From: Rhizophagus irregularis
Lineage: Eukaryota > Glomeromycota > Glomeromycetes > Glomerales > Glomeraceae
DNA: 64,000 nucleotides
Assembly: GCF_026210795.1 (NCBI RefSeq)
Contig: NC_089459.1
Coordinates: forward strand, 620,001 to 684,000
Reading direction: 5' to 3'
The notes beneath the pieces were generated by a model. The model was not told where the DNA came from and ran no database searches. It saw only the letters and a list, made by a program, of their open reading frames with translations. Below are positions 54,635-60,879 of this stretch, piece by piece. Within the stretch, counting starts at the first letter, position 1, and each line of letters starts with the position of its first letter. The position numbers were made by a program, and so were the translations under genes.

Positions 54635-56401
54635 ATGGAATCAAATAAGGAAATACTTACATCTTCATCTAACCAAACAAATCCTAAAAGTCCCAATTCT
54701 AACAATTCTAATGATAATTTAAAATTCATTGATTATTCTCGTTTTGAAAAGATCAATGAATTAAGACTTAATTTAAATGAATTGGGTATAGAATTATTTA
54801 AAGCAATTTGGAAAGATACAAATTCTAATGTTTTATTAAAGAAATTTCATTCTCAATATTTGGAAAATGTAAGTTATCTCTCAATATTCAAGTTCTTTTC
54901 TTTCTAAAATTAATAAAAATAATAAAATTAATAAAATTAATAATTTTATAAATTTTATAAATTTTTTTTTTTAGATAAAATTATTTTATAAATCATGTCA
55001 CCAAAGTATTTTACCAATATTCGGTTATACTAAAAATCCGAATAGCGAAGATGTCGAAGATTATTTTTTGATAATAGAATATCCTAACGGAGGAAATTTA
55101 CGAAATTATATGAGTGAAAATTATCAAAAACTTTCTTGGAATGATAAAATGAGATTTGCTGTTGACTTAACAAGTGGTTTACAATGTATACACAGTTATG
55201 ATATCGTACACTTAAATTTGGTAAATATTAATATATAAATAAATAGTTATAAATAATTACTTATAAATAATTACCTATAAATAATTATAAAATGATTTTT
55301 TTTTTTACTCACCTCAACTCCTTCTTTCTTCTTCCCCTTTATAGCATCCATTTAATGTATTTATCCATAATAATAGGTTATTAATAGGAGATATAGGACT
55401 TTCAAAACCTACACCTGATATTACAATACCCGAAAATAAGAAAATTTTACCTTATGTTGAACCTGATTCGTCCTTACCACGTGACAAAAAATCTGATATA
55501 TTTAGTTTAGGTTTCATATTGTATGAATTATCAAGTGGAAAACCACCTTTCGCTTCGGCTCGTCATAATCTTGATTTAAGTAAAAAATTATTATCAGGTG
55601 AAAGAGAAAAACCTATCGCGGGTACTCCTATTGAATATATTGATTTATATGAACAATGTTGGGATAATGATCCTATTGTAAGACCAAGTGCTGAAGATGT
55701 ATTATCTAGATTAGGTAGAATGAATTTATCTACAATTTATGAGGATACAGAAATTAAGACTTTTAAGACAAACATTGAAAAAAAGAATGTTAATTTTAAT
55801 AACAAAAGGAATGAAATTGAAGTTATATCCGAGACTTCAACACACAATCGACTCGATTCTGTCGTACTTGATTTTGGTGGCGGAGTAGATAGCGGATTTG
55901 GTAGTGGTAAGTAATAAGTTATTATAGTTATTATAGTTATTATGATTGTTAATGGTTATTATGGTTATGATTCACTTGTCGGTCTCGCTAATTTACTTTA
56001 TATCTATTTTTTTTTTTATGTATTTGTATTTTTTAATAATTTATAGGGGTAAGTTATTTCTTTTTAAAAATTAAATTAAAATAAATGAATATGAATATAT
56101 TGTTAACCTTACTTGATATTTCTTGATATTTCTTTTTACAGTCACGAGAGAGACGACCAATTCCAAAAGAAAAGAAAGGTAAATACCAAAAAAATTTACA
56201 AATAATAATAATAATATAATAATAATAATAATAAAATATTAATTATTGTTTTTATTTATTTTAGGGAAAAAATGTCAACTTTTACCATGCTTACCAAAAT
56301 GTAGAATCACTTTTGGAGTTTTTCTATGTTGGATGTGTATAATTCTTTTAATAGCTTGTGTATTTTTAGGATTCTTTCTAACAAAACTTATTAAAAAATA
56401 A
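54635..56401 (+). CDS. Tail-anchored pseudokinase
   Basis: Exons 54635-54868, 54975-55220, 55345-55906, 56047-56048, 56142-56178, 56265-56401 join to 405 aa. The middle has a protein-kinase fold of the Tyr-kinase-like type common in Glomeromycotina: ELFKAIWKDTNSNVLLKKF, YFLIIEYPNGGNLRNYM, LTSGLQCIHSYDIVHLNLHP, LIGDIGLSKP, LPYVEPD, KSDIFSLGFILYELSSGKPPF, CWDNDPIVRPSAEDV. The Gly-rich loop is shortened and the catalytic HRD reads HLN (N159 in place of Asp), so phosphotransfer is unlikely; DFG reads DIG. The last exon gives a single membrane helix (FGVFLCWMCIILLIACVFLG) followed by KLIKK, a tail anchor. That helix is in frame only if a 2-nt exon (GG) is used between perfect splice signals; without it the protein ends early in a non-hydrophobic frame. 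Confidence 0.75.
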
Positions 56402-56544: not shown

Positions 56545-56755
56545 TATTTCAAATGTTCAAATGTTCAAAATATTCAAATGTTCAAATATTCGATTGTTCA
56601 AATATTCAAATTTCGAATATTCAAATTTCGAACGTTCAAATGTTCAAATGTTCAAAATATTCAAATTTCGAACTTTCAAATGTTCAAATATTCAAATTTC
56701 GAATGTTCAAATGTTCAAATATTCAAATTTCGAACGTTCAAATGTTTAAATGTAA
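56545..56755. repeat. TTCAAATGTTCAAATATTC / TTTCGAAC satellite-like repeat
   Basis: The array is made of short words TTCAAATG, TTCAAATA and TTTCGAA(C/A/T), grouped into longer units of about 52-55 bp (ATTTCGAA..TTCAAATGTTCAAA repeats at about 56610, 56664, 56696 and 56725). It lies just behind the pseudokinase gene. ORFs across it are artefacts of the repeat. Confidence 0.8.
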
Positions 56756-59538
56756 TAAAAAGTATCAAATTGTATTATAAGAAAATTGTATCAAATTGTG
56801 ATATCATGTACGTACGTTGTTGTAATGTTAGAACCCCTGAATCTTGGAATATTTGATTTGTTTCAGAAACGAATTGTTTTAATCATTGTGAACTTTTTTA
56901 GAAAAAATACGGATGAACATTTAAAGATTGCGAAAACACTGAACTTTGTAACATTGTAACATTGTAACATTTGGTACGTTGAAATAATTGTTAACGAACC
57001 ATTGTTAACGAACCAGTACCAAGAACAACAAATGGTAGTCACCGACCTGCATCTGGAACGCCCAACATCCAAAGGTCGTAAACAATGACCTTACCATTAT
57101 GTACATTGAATTACGTGCACTTAACCACTTAGATTACCGTACTTAATATGCTTAGTATGCTTAGTATGCTGTAAACCGAAACCCGAAACCCTCTTGAAAC
57201 GTAAGCCAGTAAGTCGAAGTCATTGTTGACAAAAAACGTAATCTCGCAGACCACCGAAAGTTGAAACAATGCAAGAATGTAAAATTATCAAAGATGTAAA
57301 GAATGTAATTAAGCTACACTAAGCTACAATAGGATACAAAGTGTTATTTACTCTAACAAGTCTAACTCTAATCACATGATCAAAAAATATCTGATGCTGC
57401 GCCACAAAGAAATTTAGGTATTATTTTATATATATAGTATATTTATATTTATAGTATATTATATATCAAAGACTCTTTGAACCATTTACTTGTACGAGAC
57501 TATTACTAATATGACAAATAAATGTATGATAAAATTATATTTTTAAATATAGAGTAAAAATGTAATAATATTACGTATCAAAACGTCATGAACTTTATGA
57601 AACTTTTTAATACCAAAGTAAACAATATCTAACATGTAAAATATATATTAAACATGATTTAATATAACCTTTGCTTGATTAGTAATTATGTCAAACTTGA
57701 TAAACCTGTTTCATAATGGTACAAAAAAAAAATAAAATGTTCTTTGAATCAATGAAATTTTTTTTTATCGATGAGTACAAGAAAGGAAAATTTATTTTCC
57801 GGTAAAGAAAAAAATTGCCTTTATATGGTATAAAATTGTAGTTTTAAAATTTATAATCGGAAGTTTTAAAATTAATTTCACGTTTAAAACAAGTTTTTTA
57901 ACATGATTTTTTATTTTGATCTCTTTCTTCTTTCAGTCAAAATTAATCTTAAACCTAATCGGAATTTTTCTATTCCATTAAAGGAATAAAGTTTGATATT
58001 TTACGAAACAACCTTTTTTTGGCGGGAAAAAAAAAAGGAATGTTTTTTTGTGTATCAGATTTTGTTTATTTATTTTCTTAATGCAAAAAAAAAAGATGTT
58101 TTGGACTTAATACAACTGATTACATTGTGACATGTTTTTTAACAAAGCTTTAAGTTTGGTGATACAATAAATTTTTTTCTTTCCAAAAACGTTGTAGAAT
58201 GCAATATTCAAACATTTTAGGAACTTGTTTACTTTAAACGCACGGATTTCTTTATTTTATCCTAAATCAAGGGACAAAGATAAATAAATTAATCCGATGC
58301 TTCAGAATGACGTAAACATCAAACAAATTAATTTATTGGTACGGGAATATTTTTATTTCGTTGTTTATTCATTATATTTAATATTTTTATATATAATGTT
58401 TTTTTTTCCAAGTTTGTAACTTCAAAATTTCTAACATTTAATATCCTTATATTAAATTTTTAATATTAAAATCGTTGTTTATTTAAAAAAAGAACAAGGT
58501 TTTTTTTTTTTTGGTCTTTTGAAAAGAATTCTTTGTTCTTCAATATTCCTTTGTTGTTGTTATATGACGAATCATGTAACACGGATATCTACATACCAAT
58601 GAATTTATTAAGTCCGATCGTATTTAAACGAATCATTTTTATTACATGTGATTTTATGTAATTTTTTAAAATTTAAATTTAATTATTTTAATTAAATTTT
58701 TTTTTTGTCTAATGCATATAAATATTTATATAATTTATATAATTTAATGGTTTTGTAGTTAACCGATTCTTACTTGGCAAAAAAAAAAAAAAAAATTTTT
58801 TTTCTTTTTTTTTTTTATTATAAATAAAATTTTTAGGGGTGGTCTTTGTCTTCAAAAAAAAAATTATTTTTTTTTTGATACACACGGTCCATGCATTTTA
58901 GAGTTGGCATGATCTATTTTATATTTTATATAACCTTATATAGAATTTTAGATTTAAACATAAAAAAGAAAAAACTAAGAACAGTTACACCACATTTTTT
59001 TTTAAACAAGACATAAACAACAAGCAATTTTTTTTTTTTTTTTTTTATTTTATTTTATTTTAATTTTAATTTTAATTTATTTATTTTTTTTTTAATTTAA
59101 AAAATTGAAATAAAGAAGAAAACGCTTAAAATGTTTTTTTTTTTGTTGTTTGTTGTTTGTTTATTAACTCGATTTAGATTCTTTTTCTTATATAAAAATC
59201 ATCATTTTTTTCATTTCCCAAAAAAAATTTAAACTCATGAAATTTAGGAAAAAAATTATATATATAAATCATCCTTCCACCTAAAAAAGATTTCATTCAG
59301 AAAAAAAAGAAAAAAAAAGTAAAAAAAAAAAGATTTATTATTTTTTTTTTTTTATTATTATTATACAATTAATAATAAAAAAGGAAAGGGAAAAAAAAAA
59401 TTTTTTTAATAAATATATATATTTTTTTTTTAAAAAAAAAAAAATAATCAATTCATTATACACACAAAAACTCGCAAAAAAAAAACTCCTTTTTATTTAT
59501 TTATTTATTCTTTTTTTTTATACAATCTATAATCTACA
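56756..59538. other. Gene-free stretch with many homopolymers
   Basis: No supported gene. 57135-57165 has ATGCTTAGT repeats. The last 800 bases before 59539 are almost only A/T, with long T and A runs (for example 58781-58809, 59027-59046, 59346-59355, 59422-59444), and should include the promoter and leader of the next gene. Confidence 0.55.
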
Positions 59539-60879
59539 ATGGTTCATGTAAAATTAAATTCTGACATTATTCGTCAGATTATTTTATCCCTCGCCGATTC
59601 AGATCCGAAAACTGGAGAATACAAGTCTTATTCTATTTTATATCCTTGCTTGCTCGTTAATCGTGAATGGTGTAGAATTACTGTTCCAATTTTATGGCAA
59701 CAACCTTTTAGTTTCGATCATATTAGAGGTGCAAGAGCGATTGTAACCTATTGTAGGTTTCTTTCTTTTCATGAAAAACAAATTCTTATTGAAAATGGAA
59801 TAAATATTAATTTACTCTTTCAAAATGGTTCAAAATCTCAATATGAAGAGGAAGAAGATAACAATAATAATTTAAATAGTTTAAATAGAGGAAATGTCAT
59901 GTCTTTAGAATTTATAACAAATTCATCCAATTCATCGTCATCATCATCATCATCATCATCATCATTTTATAATTATGATCTTAGTGGATTTAATTATCCA
60001 TTATACCTTCGAAGATTGCATTATGAAAATTTTTTTAAATCAGCCGAATACATATGTATTCGGCTGTCGGATTATTCTGAAGGTGATTTGTCCGCCGGAG
60101 AAGACGAATATAATGAAGAATATTATGATGATGAAGATCAGAGGGATTTTAGTGAGCAAGCAAAATTATTGGTCAATAGTTTGTTAACTCTTTCACAAAA
60201 AAATGGTGCAAGATTAAATGGTCTTTGGTTTTCACCTGATTCTCCTTACAATGATATCGATAAATATGAACCGCTTTATGAGTACGGCAAGTTATTAGAA
60301 GATGTAAACGTGCTCGATATCTGCTGTCTTTTTCGAAAGCCCGCCTTGTTTTCGATCTTAGGTCGTATGTGCCATCAAGTTCGGCATTTAAGAATACATA
60401 TGATATGGAGCCGCCATTATGAGGAGAAACATATCGATAAGACGGGAGAGGTCATTCATGAATTAATCTCTTCTCAAAAGTCATTGGTCTCATTTCATTT
60501 GGAATCTTGTAAAGCCTATACAAGAATCTTCTTTCCCCTCCTGTCTATTCATAGTCGAAGTCTCAGGCACCTAAAATTCGATCAAGTCGATTTTAGAGGT
60601 TGTCCATCTTGGGCTCCAATTTCGGACTGTGCTAATCTCCAATTATTGGAGATTATCCAATGTACGAATATGGAACCGGATATGGTTCGACCTCTAATTT
60701 CGAACAACAATACTCCCGGAGAGAAATTTAAGGTGAAGTATATAAAAATTAATCATTCTTGTAGAGAATTAGAAGAATGGGTTAAGAGGGTTAATGGTTA
60801 TAAACAAATAGATTTACCTATCGATATTCAGAAATTGGATGAAGCAAGCGGAAGTAATAATAGAACTAAAGAAATATAG
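59539..60879 (+). CDS. F-box / LRR-like protein, intronless
   Basis: A single open frame of 446 aa. The N-terminus is an F-box-like motif typical for Glomeromycotina (LNSDIIRQIILSLAD...YSILYPCLLVNREWCRITVPILWQQPF). After a Glu/Asn stretch and an 11-residue Ser run come irregular leucine-rich segments: ARLNGLWFSPDSP, LLEDVNVLDICCL, QVRHLRIHMIW, KSLVSFHLESC, RSLRHLKFDQVDF, NLQLLEIIQCTNM. Such proteins serve as substrate receptors of SCF ubiquitin ligases; these fungi carry large numbers of them. The start at 59539 follows a long AT-only leader, and the stop is at 60877-60879. G+C is higher than in its flanks. Confidence 0.85.
   Translation: MVHVKLNSDIIRQIILSLADSDPKTGEYKSYSILYPCLLVNREWCRITVPILWQQPFSFDHIRGARAIVTYCRFLSFHEKQILIENGININLLFQNGSKSQYEEEEDNNNNLNSLNRGNVMSLEFITNSSNSSSSSSSSSSSFYNYDLSGFNYPLYLRRLHYENFFKSAEYICIRLSDYSEGDLSAGEDEYNEEYYDDEDQRDFSEQAKLLVNSLLTLSQKNGARLNGLWFSPDSPYNDIDKYEPLYEYGKLLEDVNVLDICCLFRKPALFSILGRMCHQVRHLRIHMIWSRHYEEKHIDKTGEVIHELISSQKSLVSFHLESCKAYTRIFFPLLSIHSRSLRHLKFDQVDFRGCPSWAPISDCANLQLLEIIQCTNMEPDMVRPLISNNNTPGEKFKVKYIKINHSCRELEEWVKRVNGYKQIDLPIDIQKLDEASGSNNRTKEI

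Follow-up and report, generated by a model that had tools for sequence, protein, structure and literature searches.

An exon of two nucleotides lies near the limit of what the spliceosome is known to define. Single-nucleotide exons have been described from Arabidopsis, Fusarium and Cryptococcus, and the candidate two-base exon GG considered here, found in a kinase-like gene of Rhizophagus irregularis, joins this already known kind. The gene was studied in a stretch of 64,000 nucleotides (assembly GCF_026210795.1, contig NC_089459.1, positions 620,001 to 684,000), further referred to as the window; coordinates given without a locus name are positions in the window. Published systems are compared as they are described in the accessible portions of the cited papers.

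Like GG, the exon of Fusarium CYP621A (PMC12940212) is an ultra-short fungal exon inferred from a phase clash of its flanks; it has a G core with consensus sites on both sides, and its omission breaks the frame. The sub-codon exons of Arabidopsis APC11 and plant VPS55 (PMC4674806, PMC8831610) are comparable as well, and leaving out the VPS55 exon alters the number of membrane helices. The CYP621A exon is 1 nt long, occurs in 24 genes and is backed by reads and an intronless relative, and the plant exons are kept across plants and were verified by RT-PCR, whereas GG has 2 nt and is predicted, from sequence, in one gene. Cryptococcus neoformans (PMC3990503) is likewise a fungus with tiny exons, down to 1 bp and supported there by RNA; however, it is a basidiomycete, and arrays are unmentioned in the accessible text. 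Stwintrons (PMC9024468) resemble the GG region in that two ordered splicing reactions take place at one site of a fungal gene. They leave zero exon bases, whereas the frame of the window gene needs two (with zero bases, the frame stops after 372 aa), and the GG region is not of the stwintron type.

The same genome contains arrays of predicted three-nucleotide exons, and for these the closest described systems are the micro-exon genes (MEGs) of flatworms (PMC5825161, PMC7653826), which also have rows of short exons divisible by three. Schistosome MEG exons have 6–36 bp, whereas nearly all array units here have one codon. Further, the arrays differ from MEGs in their near-copy introns, fungal host, and kinase and coiled-coil products. 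MEGs are defined (PMC7653826) as having at least seven exons, with at least half of them shorter than 70 nt and divisible by 3 and at least four of these in a row. On predicted exons, the loci L074, L075, L082 and L084 fall under this definition with 33, 69, 27 and 31 three-nucleotide units, respectively, whereas the window gene, having six exons and a microexon of 2 nt, does not. The open-access papers searched yielded no report of Rhizophagus microexons or single-codon exon arrays, and the accessible part of PMC10234402 makes no mention of tiny exons or arrays. Single-codon exon arrays in a fungus would be new.

Data and scoring

The splice model and the gene finder were self-trained on the window and 67 loci (278,683 bases). 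The last training round comprised 105 genes and 313 introns with the median length of 78 nt. Parses of the window gene were enumerated from exon 3 on, with at most four introns of 40–500 nt; tiny exons carry no penalty in this scheme. Tiny-exon sites were counted on both strands of 32 contigs (146,748,485 bases) for exon lengths of 2, 3, 4 and 6 nt, the reversed pattern serving as a control. Slashes in the motifs below mark predicted exon borders.

Structure of the window gene

The predicted gene is located on the + strand. Exon 1 (54635..54868) begins with ATG, forms an open frame and ends at a GTAAGT donor. It is followed by exon 2 (54975..55220; acceptor at the 91st percentile, donor at the 64th) and exon 3 (55345..55906; acceptor at the 78th percentile, donor at the 98th), which covers the C-terminal lobe of the kinase-like domain and ends in phase 1; paralogous exons of the same genome are up to 41–47% identical to it. 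The next intron (55907..56046, 140 nt) starts with GTAAGT, contains CTAAT 55 nt before its 3' end and terminates in TATAG. The candidate exon GG occupies positions 56047..56048, and the intron downstream of it (56049..56141, 93 nt) has GTAAGT at the 5' end, TTAAC 35 nt before the 3' end and a CAG acceptor. Hence acceptor and donor consensus sequences directly flank GG inside the gene, as in an ultra-short microexon (1–3 nt). Such a pair of sites two bases apart had been pointed out in the preliminary description, and TATAG/GG/GTAAGT is indeed present, with the phase-1 end of exon 3 at 55906 and the following exon start at 56142 also confirmed.

Exon 5 (56142..56178, 37 nt), which reads SRERRPIPKEKK in the frame set by GG, has a GC content of 0.405 compared to 0.16–0.19 in the preceding introns. 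Its coding score is 3.6 in the GG frame and -0.1 in the frame without GG, so that the former is ahead by 3.7 nats. An 86-nt intron (56179..56264; donor and acceptor both at the 88th percentile) separates it from exon 6 (56265..56401), which contains the membrane tail and the stop codon. With GG included, the six exons form a coding sequence of 1218 nt, i.e. the 406 codons counted earlier, stop included (405 aa). When GG is left out, the frame stops early, as had been foreseen, at 56302..56304 after 372 aa, and the product has no membrane helix. GG is needed for the long frame (405 vs 372 aa), and two weaker in-frame routes without GG exist.

The protein matches the protein kinase domain PF07714 (Pfam, E 1.5e-25). 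The catalytic HRD motif reads HLN in the window gene, whereas the paralogue L027 keeps HRD (by eye). Therefore pseudokinase, the term used in the preliminary description, is a fair name for the predicted protein, the Asp of HRD being lost within the kinase domain as judged from the sequence. No relatives were found in viral_contigs and genome_contigs.

Splice scores and chance tests

Among the 313 predicted introns, the GG donor and acceptor are at the 97th and 94th percentiles, respectively, and the percentiles are the same with the four introns of the window gene dropped (309 introns kept). Of 4,871 parses, the one with GG ranked first with the score of 68.7, and the best GG-free parse, in which GG is skipped, scored 62.4. 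Both the site percentiles and the parse ranking thus favor the initial suggestion that a two-nucleotide exon restores the frame into a tail anchor. On splice and coding scores alone, a prior penalty of about 6 nats on a 2-nt exon would make the models with and without GG equal; it is then the membrane tail that decides between them. The coding model disfavors exon 6 (score -7.0), and in this exon the tail frame does not stand out by its synonymous codon use (1.73 vs 1.80 in another frame).

The score rises by 6.5 nats when the 235-nt intron is split at GG. No such gain from any microexon of 1–20 nt was seen in 10,380 pseudo-introns cut from 123,193 noncoding bases in windows that overlap at 20-base steps and correspond to about 1,000 independent ones, and only 0.2% of the pseudo-introns came within 2 nats of the GG gain with a fitting phase. 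Nor did any other predicted intron of the 313 gain 3 nats or more when split, only introns of at least 90 nt being testable in this way. The pattern YAGNNGTAAGT has 1,769 matches in 2 x 146.7 Mb, or about 0.001 per 235-nt intron. The 12-mer TATAGGGGTAAG was considered as a signal by itself and rejected: it is found in 12 places of the genome, and so is the reversed control.

The most hydrophobic stretch of the tail, VFLCWMCIILLIACVFLGF (56318..56374), has the mean Kyte-Doolittle hydropathy of 2.92 and is predicted to form a C-terminal membrane helix with a basic tip. In noncoding DNA of the same genome (array loci omitted), 2 of 1,245 acceptor-phase trials yielded a frame of 40–80 aa with an equally hydrophobic 19-residue stretch, and none yielded such a stretch together with a basic tip. 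In an earlier run these numbers were 2 and 0 of 1,545. Except for itself, the exon 6 tail has no homologues in its own genome at E<=10. The best-matching paralogue, L011, was discarded as a model of the tail, as by eye it continues into ankyrin-like repeats rather than a membrane tail. Taken at the level of sequence, the gene very probably carries a 2-nt exon that keeps the membrane anchor in frame.

Genome-wide counts of tiny-exon sites

Sites of 2-nt exons are not enriched in the genome (1,769 vs 2,545 for the reversed control), and the same counts are 1,404 vs 2,975 for 4 nt and 1,548 vs 1,957 for 6 nt. For 3-nt sites (YAG/NNN/GTAAGT), 7,430 places were found vs 2,254 for the reversed pattern. 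Hence, of the four lengths, an excess is seen at 3 nt only, about 5,860 above the mean of the other three. At the loci that were read, such 3-nt sites are arranged in tandem. On contig C1, 82 of 100 three-nucleotide places among the matches listed fall into three clusters (32, 37 and 13 places), where none of the 2-, 4- and 6-nt places among the matches listed is found. Two of these clusters stop just before kinase exon matches (C1:1386225 and C1:2435826). The preliminary description regarded exons of two bases as exceedingly rare; this holds insofar as there is no genome-wide excess of 2-nt sites, but candidate exons of 3 nt and 1 nt are numerous.

Arrays of three-nucleotide units

When exons of at least 1 nt were allowed, the gene finder predicted rows of 3-nt exons in the kinase paralogues L027 and L038. 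These loci, both on the minus strand and on different contigs, share the row ATT, GGT, GGA, ATT/GTT, TTG, A. A comparison of exon and intron constraint between them was not discriminating: over six paired units (the seventh L027 unit, AGA, is partnerless), 15 of 16 exon bases agree and introns are 85–95% alike. The loci L004–L006, which were fetched for TATAGGGGTAAG, contain 23–27 unit candidates per 3 kb, all on one strand. Some units in them would break the frame if included: AG, GG and TATT in L004, GG in L005, and GC and GG in L006. Isolated exon candidates of 5 nt and 6 nt are present at the kinase loci L032 (499-503) and L033 (1283-1288) on the minus strand, with margins of about 5 nats.

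Many arrays end in a common module, TAG/TTG/GTAAGT, 55–85 bases, AG/A/GTAAG, 55–85 bases, AG/ATTTGG. The pattern, which was defined after examples had been seen, matches 78 places, its reverse matches none, and 75 of the 78 places end at a kinase exon (among the 150 kinase-exon matches listed). Exons upstream end in phase 1 (L004, L076, L027 and L038, by eye) and the kinase exon needs phase 2; therefore one extra base is required. Joining TTG directly to ATTTGG would give TGA.

Seven arrays that had not been picked for the 12-mer (L074, L076, L081–L085) comprise 171 clustered units, of which 161 are 3 nt long. The others are six terminal 1-nt A units, two units of 2 nt (both in L081), one of 6 nt and one of 4 nt (in L085); decayed units are undercounted, since good splice consensus was required. 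Intron lengths vary within these arrays (s.d. 6.7–19.2), whereas the core length is steadier. In L074 (1104-4646), the 3-nt units are followed by TTG and the 1-nt A before the kinase exon, and the arrays of L076 and L081–L084 end likewise (with TTA instead of TTG in L076). The gene finder chained tiny exons on L074, but with a weak start and some units omitted. At L085:1563-3445 (C17, + strand), a CAG-type array of 3-nt units lies upstream of kinase-like open frames.

With the phase set by the kinase exon, 178 units contain no stop codons compared to the mean of 4.70 in shuffled arrays, and 0.14% of 5,000 shuffles reached zero; the units' own phase gave 0 stops and the third phase, 28. These counts refer to nine stretches in which gaps were joined as if empty and L083 contributed its 6-nt unit as two units; they leave out L004, L027, L038, L075 and L085, the part of L005 beyond its GG, L081 in its second half and L006 in part. 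Ahead of the kinase exon, L081–L084 read D-A/P-F-E, and the Ala codon of L083 differs from that of L081 and L084 by one synonymous base (both by eye). Contiguous kinase exons in L033 and L047 have the sequence NF.NWTSG, where F is equally spaced, which may be taken as weak homology support. We also considered L070–L073 as contiguous homologues of the residues encoded by microexons and rejected them: the matches come from read-through of the preceding intron and the loci contain the same TTG + A module, so they are not independent homology.

The longest chain, 69 consecutive 3-nt units, is located at L075:679-8440 (C1:1723678-1731439, + strand; the stretch fetched was C1:1723000-1732500). Its introns have the mean length of 111 nt (s.d. 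18) and are 79–97% alike in 52 pairs (16 units apart), whereas the 3-nt cores differ widely. Homogenization of introns, repeated insertion of one element into an older exon, or fast codon change could each produce this pattern. In one phase the chain reads MDERLWEELEESLKGLLPPTIPPPPPLPGRLPLGTKIPSPPPLPGRLPIKKIINERNERPRRRHAIKG, a proline-rich stop-free peptide whose ATG is shared between units 1 and 2, compared to 3 and 6 stops in the other phases. The frame continues via a 26-nt exon and a long exon into a coiled coil, making 364 open codons up to where the fetched stretch ends. Both the 26-nt exon and the acceptor of the coiled coil (CTGAAG) were hand-picked because they close the frame, and the set of donor patterns was broadened once the sequence had been seen. 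One gap of 240 nt conceals a unit with a lost acceptor. The gene finder run with exons of at least 1 nt predicted in L075 only a three-exon coiled-coil gene and no 69-unit gene. A search for a contiguous copy of the array peptide returned its own coiled-coil exon and 10 matches at E>1, none of them such a copy. The best reading of the L075 units is that they would be exons.

We consider it likely that many R. irregularis genes, including kinases, contain arrays of up to about 70 predicted 3-nt exons and would build parts of their proteins codon by codon. As put here, this reading includes similar introns of about 75–130 nt, a 1-nt exon that often closes the array, and a splicing machinery permissive enough to have also produced, as an isolated case, the GG exon of the window. 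The alternative is that the arrays are tandem repeats within one long intron, excised whole or piecemeal, with the 3-nt cores absent from the mRNA. The units are near-copies of one another, 2-nt or 4-nt units occur in some arrays, and in L075 the gene finder failed to link up the array on its own, all of which would suit repeats. However, the excess of sites is confined to 3 nt, the cores are steadier in length than the introns, the phase of the kinase exon is stop-free, and the flanking phases demand the 1-nt exon. Moreover, the L075 frame leads from an ATG divided between two units to a coiled coil, and this frame and its start codon, as well as the core length, are left unexplained by repeats; we regard the repeat explanation as rather unlikely.

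If the arrays are spliced as read, a root-colonizing fungus has genes made of rows of single-codon exons. They would be an exceptional natural test of ordered recognition of splice sites three bases apart, of how such rows arise, and of whether kinases are varied in this way, and in this respect the arrays matter more than the GG exon. As omission of any 3-nt unit keeps the frame, one array gene could give very many protein variants. The splicing question is directly testable, since PMC10234402 describes long RNA reads of the DAOM197198 isolate.

Alternative explanations for GG

The product of the window gene is likely to be kinase-like, to have a degenerate HRD motif and to be anchored in a membrane by its C-terminus, GG being a constitutive exon between two ordinary introns. 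If GG were skipped instead, a single 235-nt intron would join exon 3 to exon 5, and the tail frame would be accidental. This is the second-best kind of model (62.4 vs 68.7), its intron is long (94th percentile) yet allowed, and the genome has no excess of 2-nt sites. Yet the two ideal sites around GG and the tail with its helix and basic tip (0 of 1,245 trials) would then both be coincidences, and exon 5 scores worse in the skip frame. Skipping as the sole outcome therefore appears unlikely. We hold in similarly low regard the soluble/anchored switch proposed in the preliminary description, in which regulated inclusion or skipping of GG would produce a membrane-bound or a soluble pseudokinase. 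The switch is possible because both outcomes are translatable, and the stop of the skip frame is located in the last exon. No sign of regulation was seen, however. Both GG sites are very strong, the two half-introns have ordinary signals, and the level of exon skipping in fungi is described as comparatively low (PMC6142364, in its accessible part). Constitutive inclusion is likelier than the switch, which is a special case of the preferred explanation, so the probabilities of the two overlap.

A real tail might also be reached without GG by three routes that all preserve its frame: via an acceptor AG at 56147..56148 (exon start 56149, 402 aa), by joining exon 3 directly to exon 6, or from the donor GTAGAT. 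Only the last of these was named in the preliminary description, where it was placed at 55886; the motif is present, but starts at 55885 (55885..55890). Among the tail-reaching routes, the one with GG scores 100.2, compared to 85.8 for the acceptor at 56149 (14.4 nats lower), 83.2 for GTAGAT and 82.7 for the direct junction of exons 3 and 6 (17.5 nats lower). The acceptor at 56149 is at the 1st percentile of acceptors, and GAG acceptors are used by 2 of 309 predicted introns; GTAGAT is at the 12th percentile of donors; and the direct junction requires an intron of 358 nt (96th percentile of length). Such GG-free routes to the tail are very unlikely. Still less probable is the explanation that the frame was disturbed close to the junction, either by an error of the assembly or by a recent frameshift, and that GG repairs it just by chance in the model. 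The AT-richness and the numerous homopolymers of the genome might favor this, but the matching assembly was built from Illumina and Nanopore reads (PMC10234402, accessible part), and the strength of both GG sites would still be a coincidence.

Proposed mechanism and origin of the GG exon

Under constitutive inclusion, we infer that the introns of 140 and 93 nt are probably taken out in turn by intron definition, leaving GG in the transcript. Removal would be stepwise because the factors of both splice sites cannot share two bases. GG would then supply the missing bases of the glycine codon that exon 3 begins, and exons 5 and 6 would enter the anchor frame, whose hydrophobic stretch may insert into a membrane. 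A combination of intron definition and recursive removal was suggested for the 1-nt exon of Arabidopsis (PMC4674806). In Fusarium CYP621A (PMC12940212), 1-nt exons were proposed to rescue the frame after a small loss close to a junction, which is easiest with G. Both mechanisms would fit GG. A rescue is also a likely origin of GG, in which a small indel close to where exons 3 and 5 meet would have been compensated by recruitment of a G-rich cryptic exon. The genomic setting lends credibility to a 2-nt exon, as 3-nt exons appear to be used by the thousand in tandem arrays and many kinase exons appear to be preceded by an exon of 1 nt. Likeness of the window intron to the array units, considered at one stage, was withdrawn: 41 of 100 shuffles score equally high, and no kinship is detectable. 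Exons of this size tend to be overlooked by gene finders, so that the protein could be annotated without its membrane anchor.

Other features of the window

In the parse with exons of at least 1 nt, a second 2-nt GG exon appears at 58837-58838 with a zero score margin and is probably noise. At 59533-60879 (+ strand), there is a stop-to-stop open frame of 448 aa with low-complexity runs; bases 59539-60876 have no match in Pfam at E 0.01. Directly downstream of the window gene, at 56548-56753, lies a tandem repeat of the TTCAAATG type.
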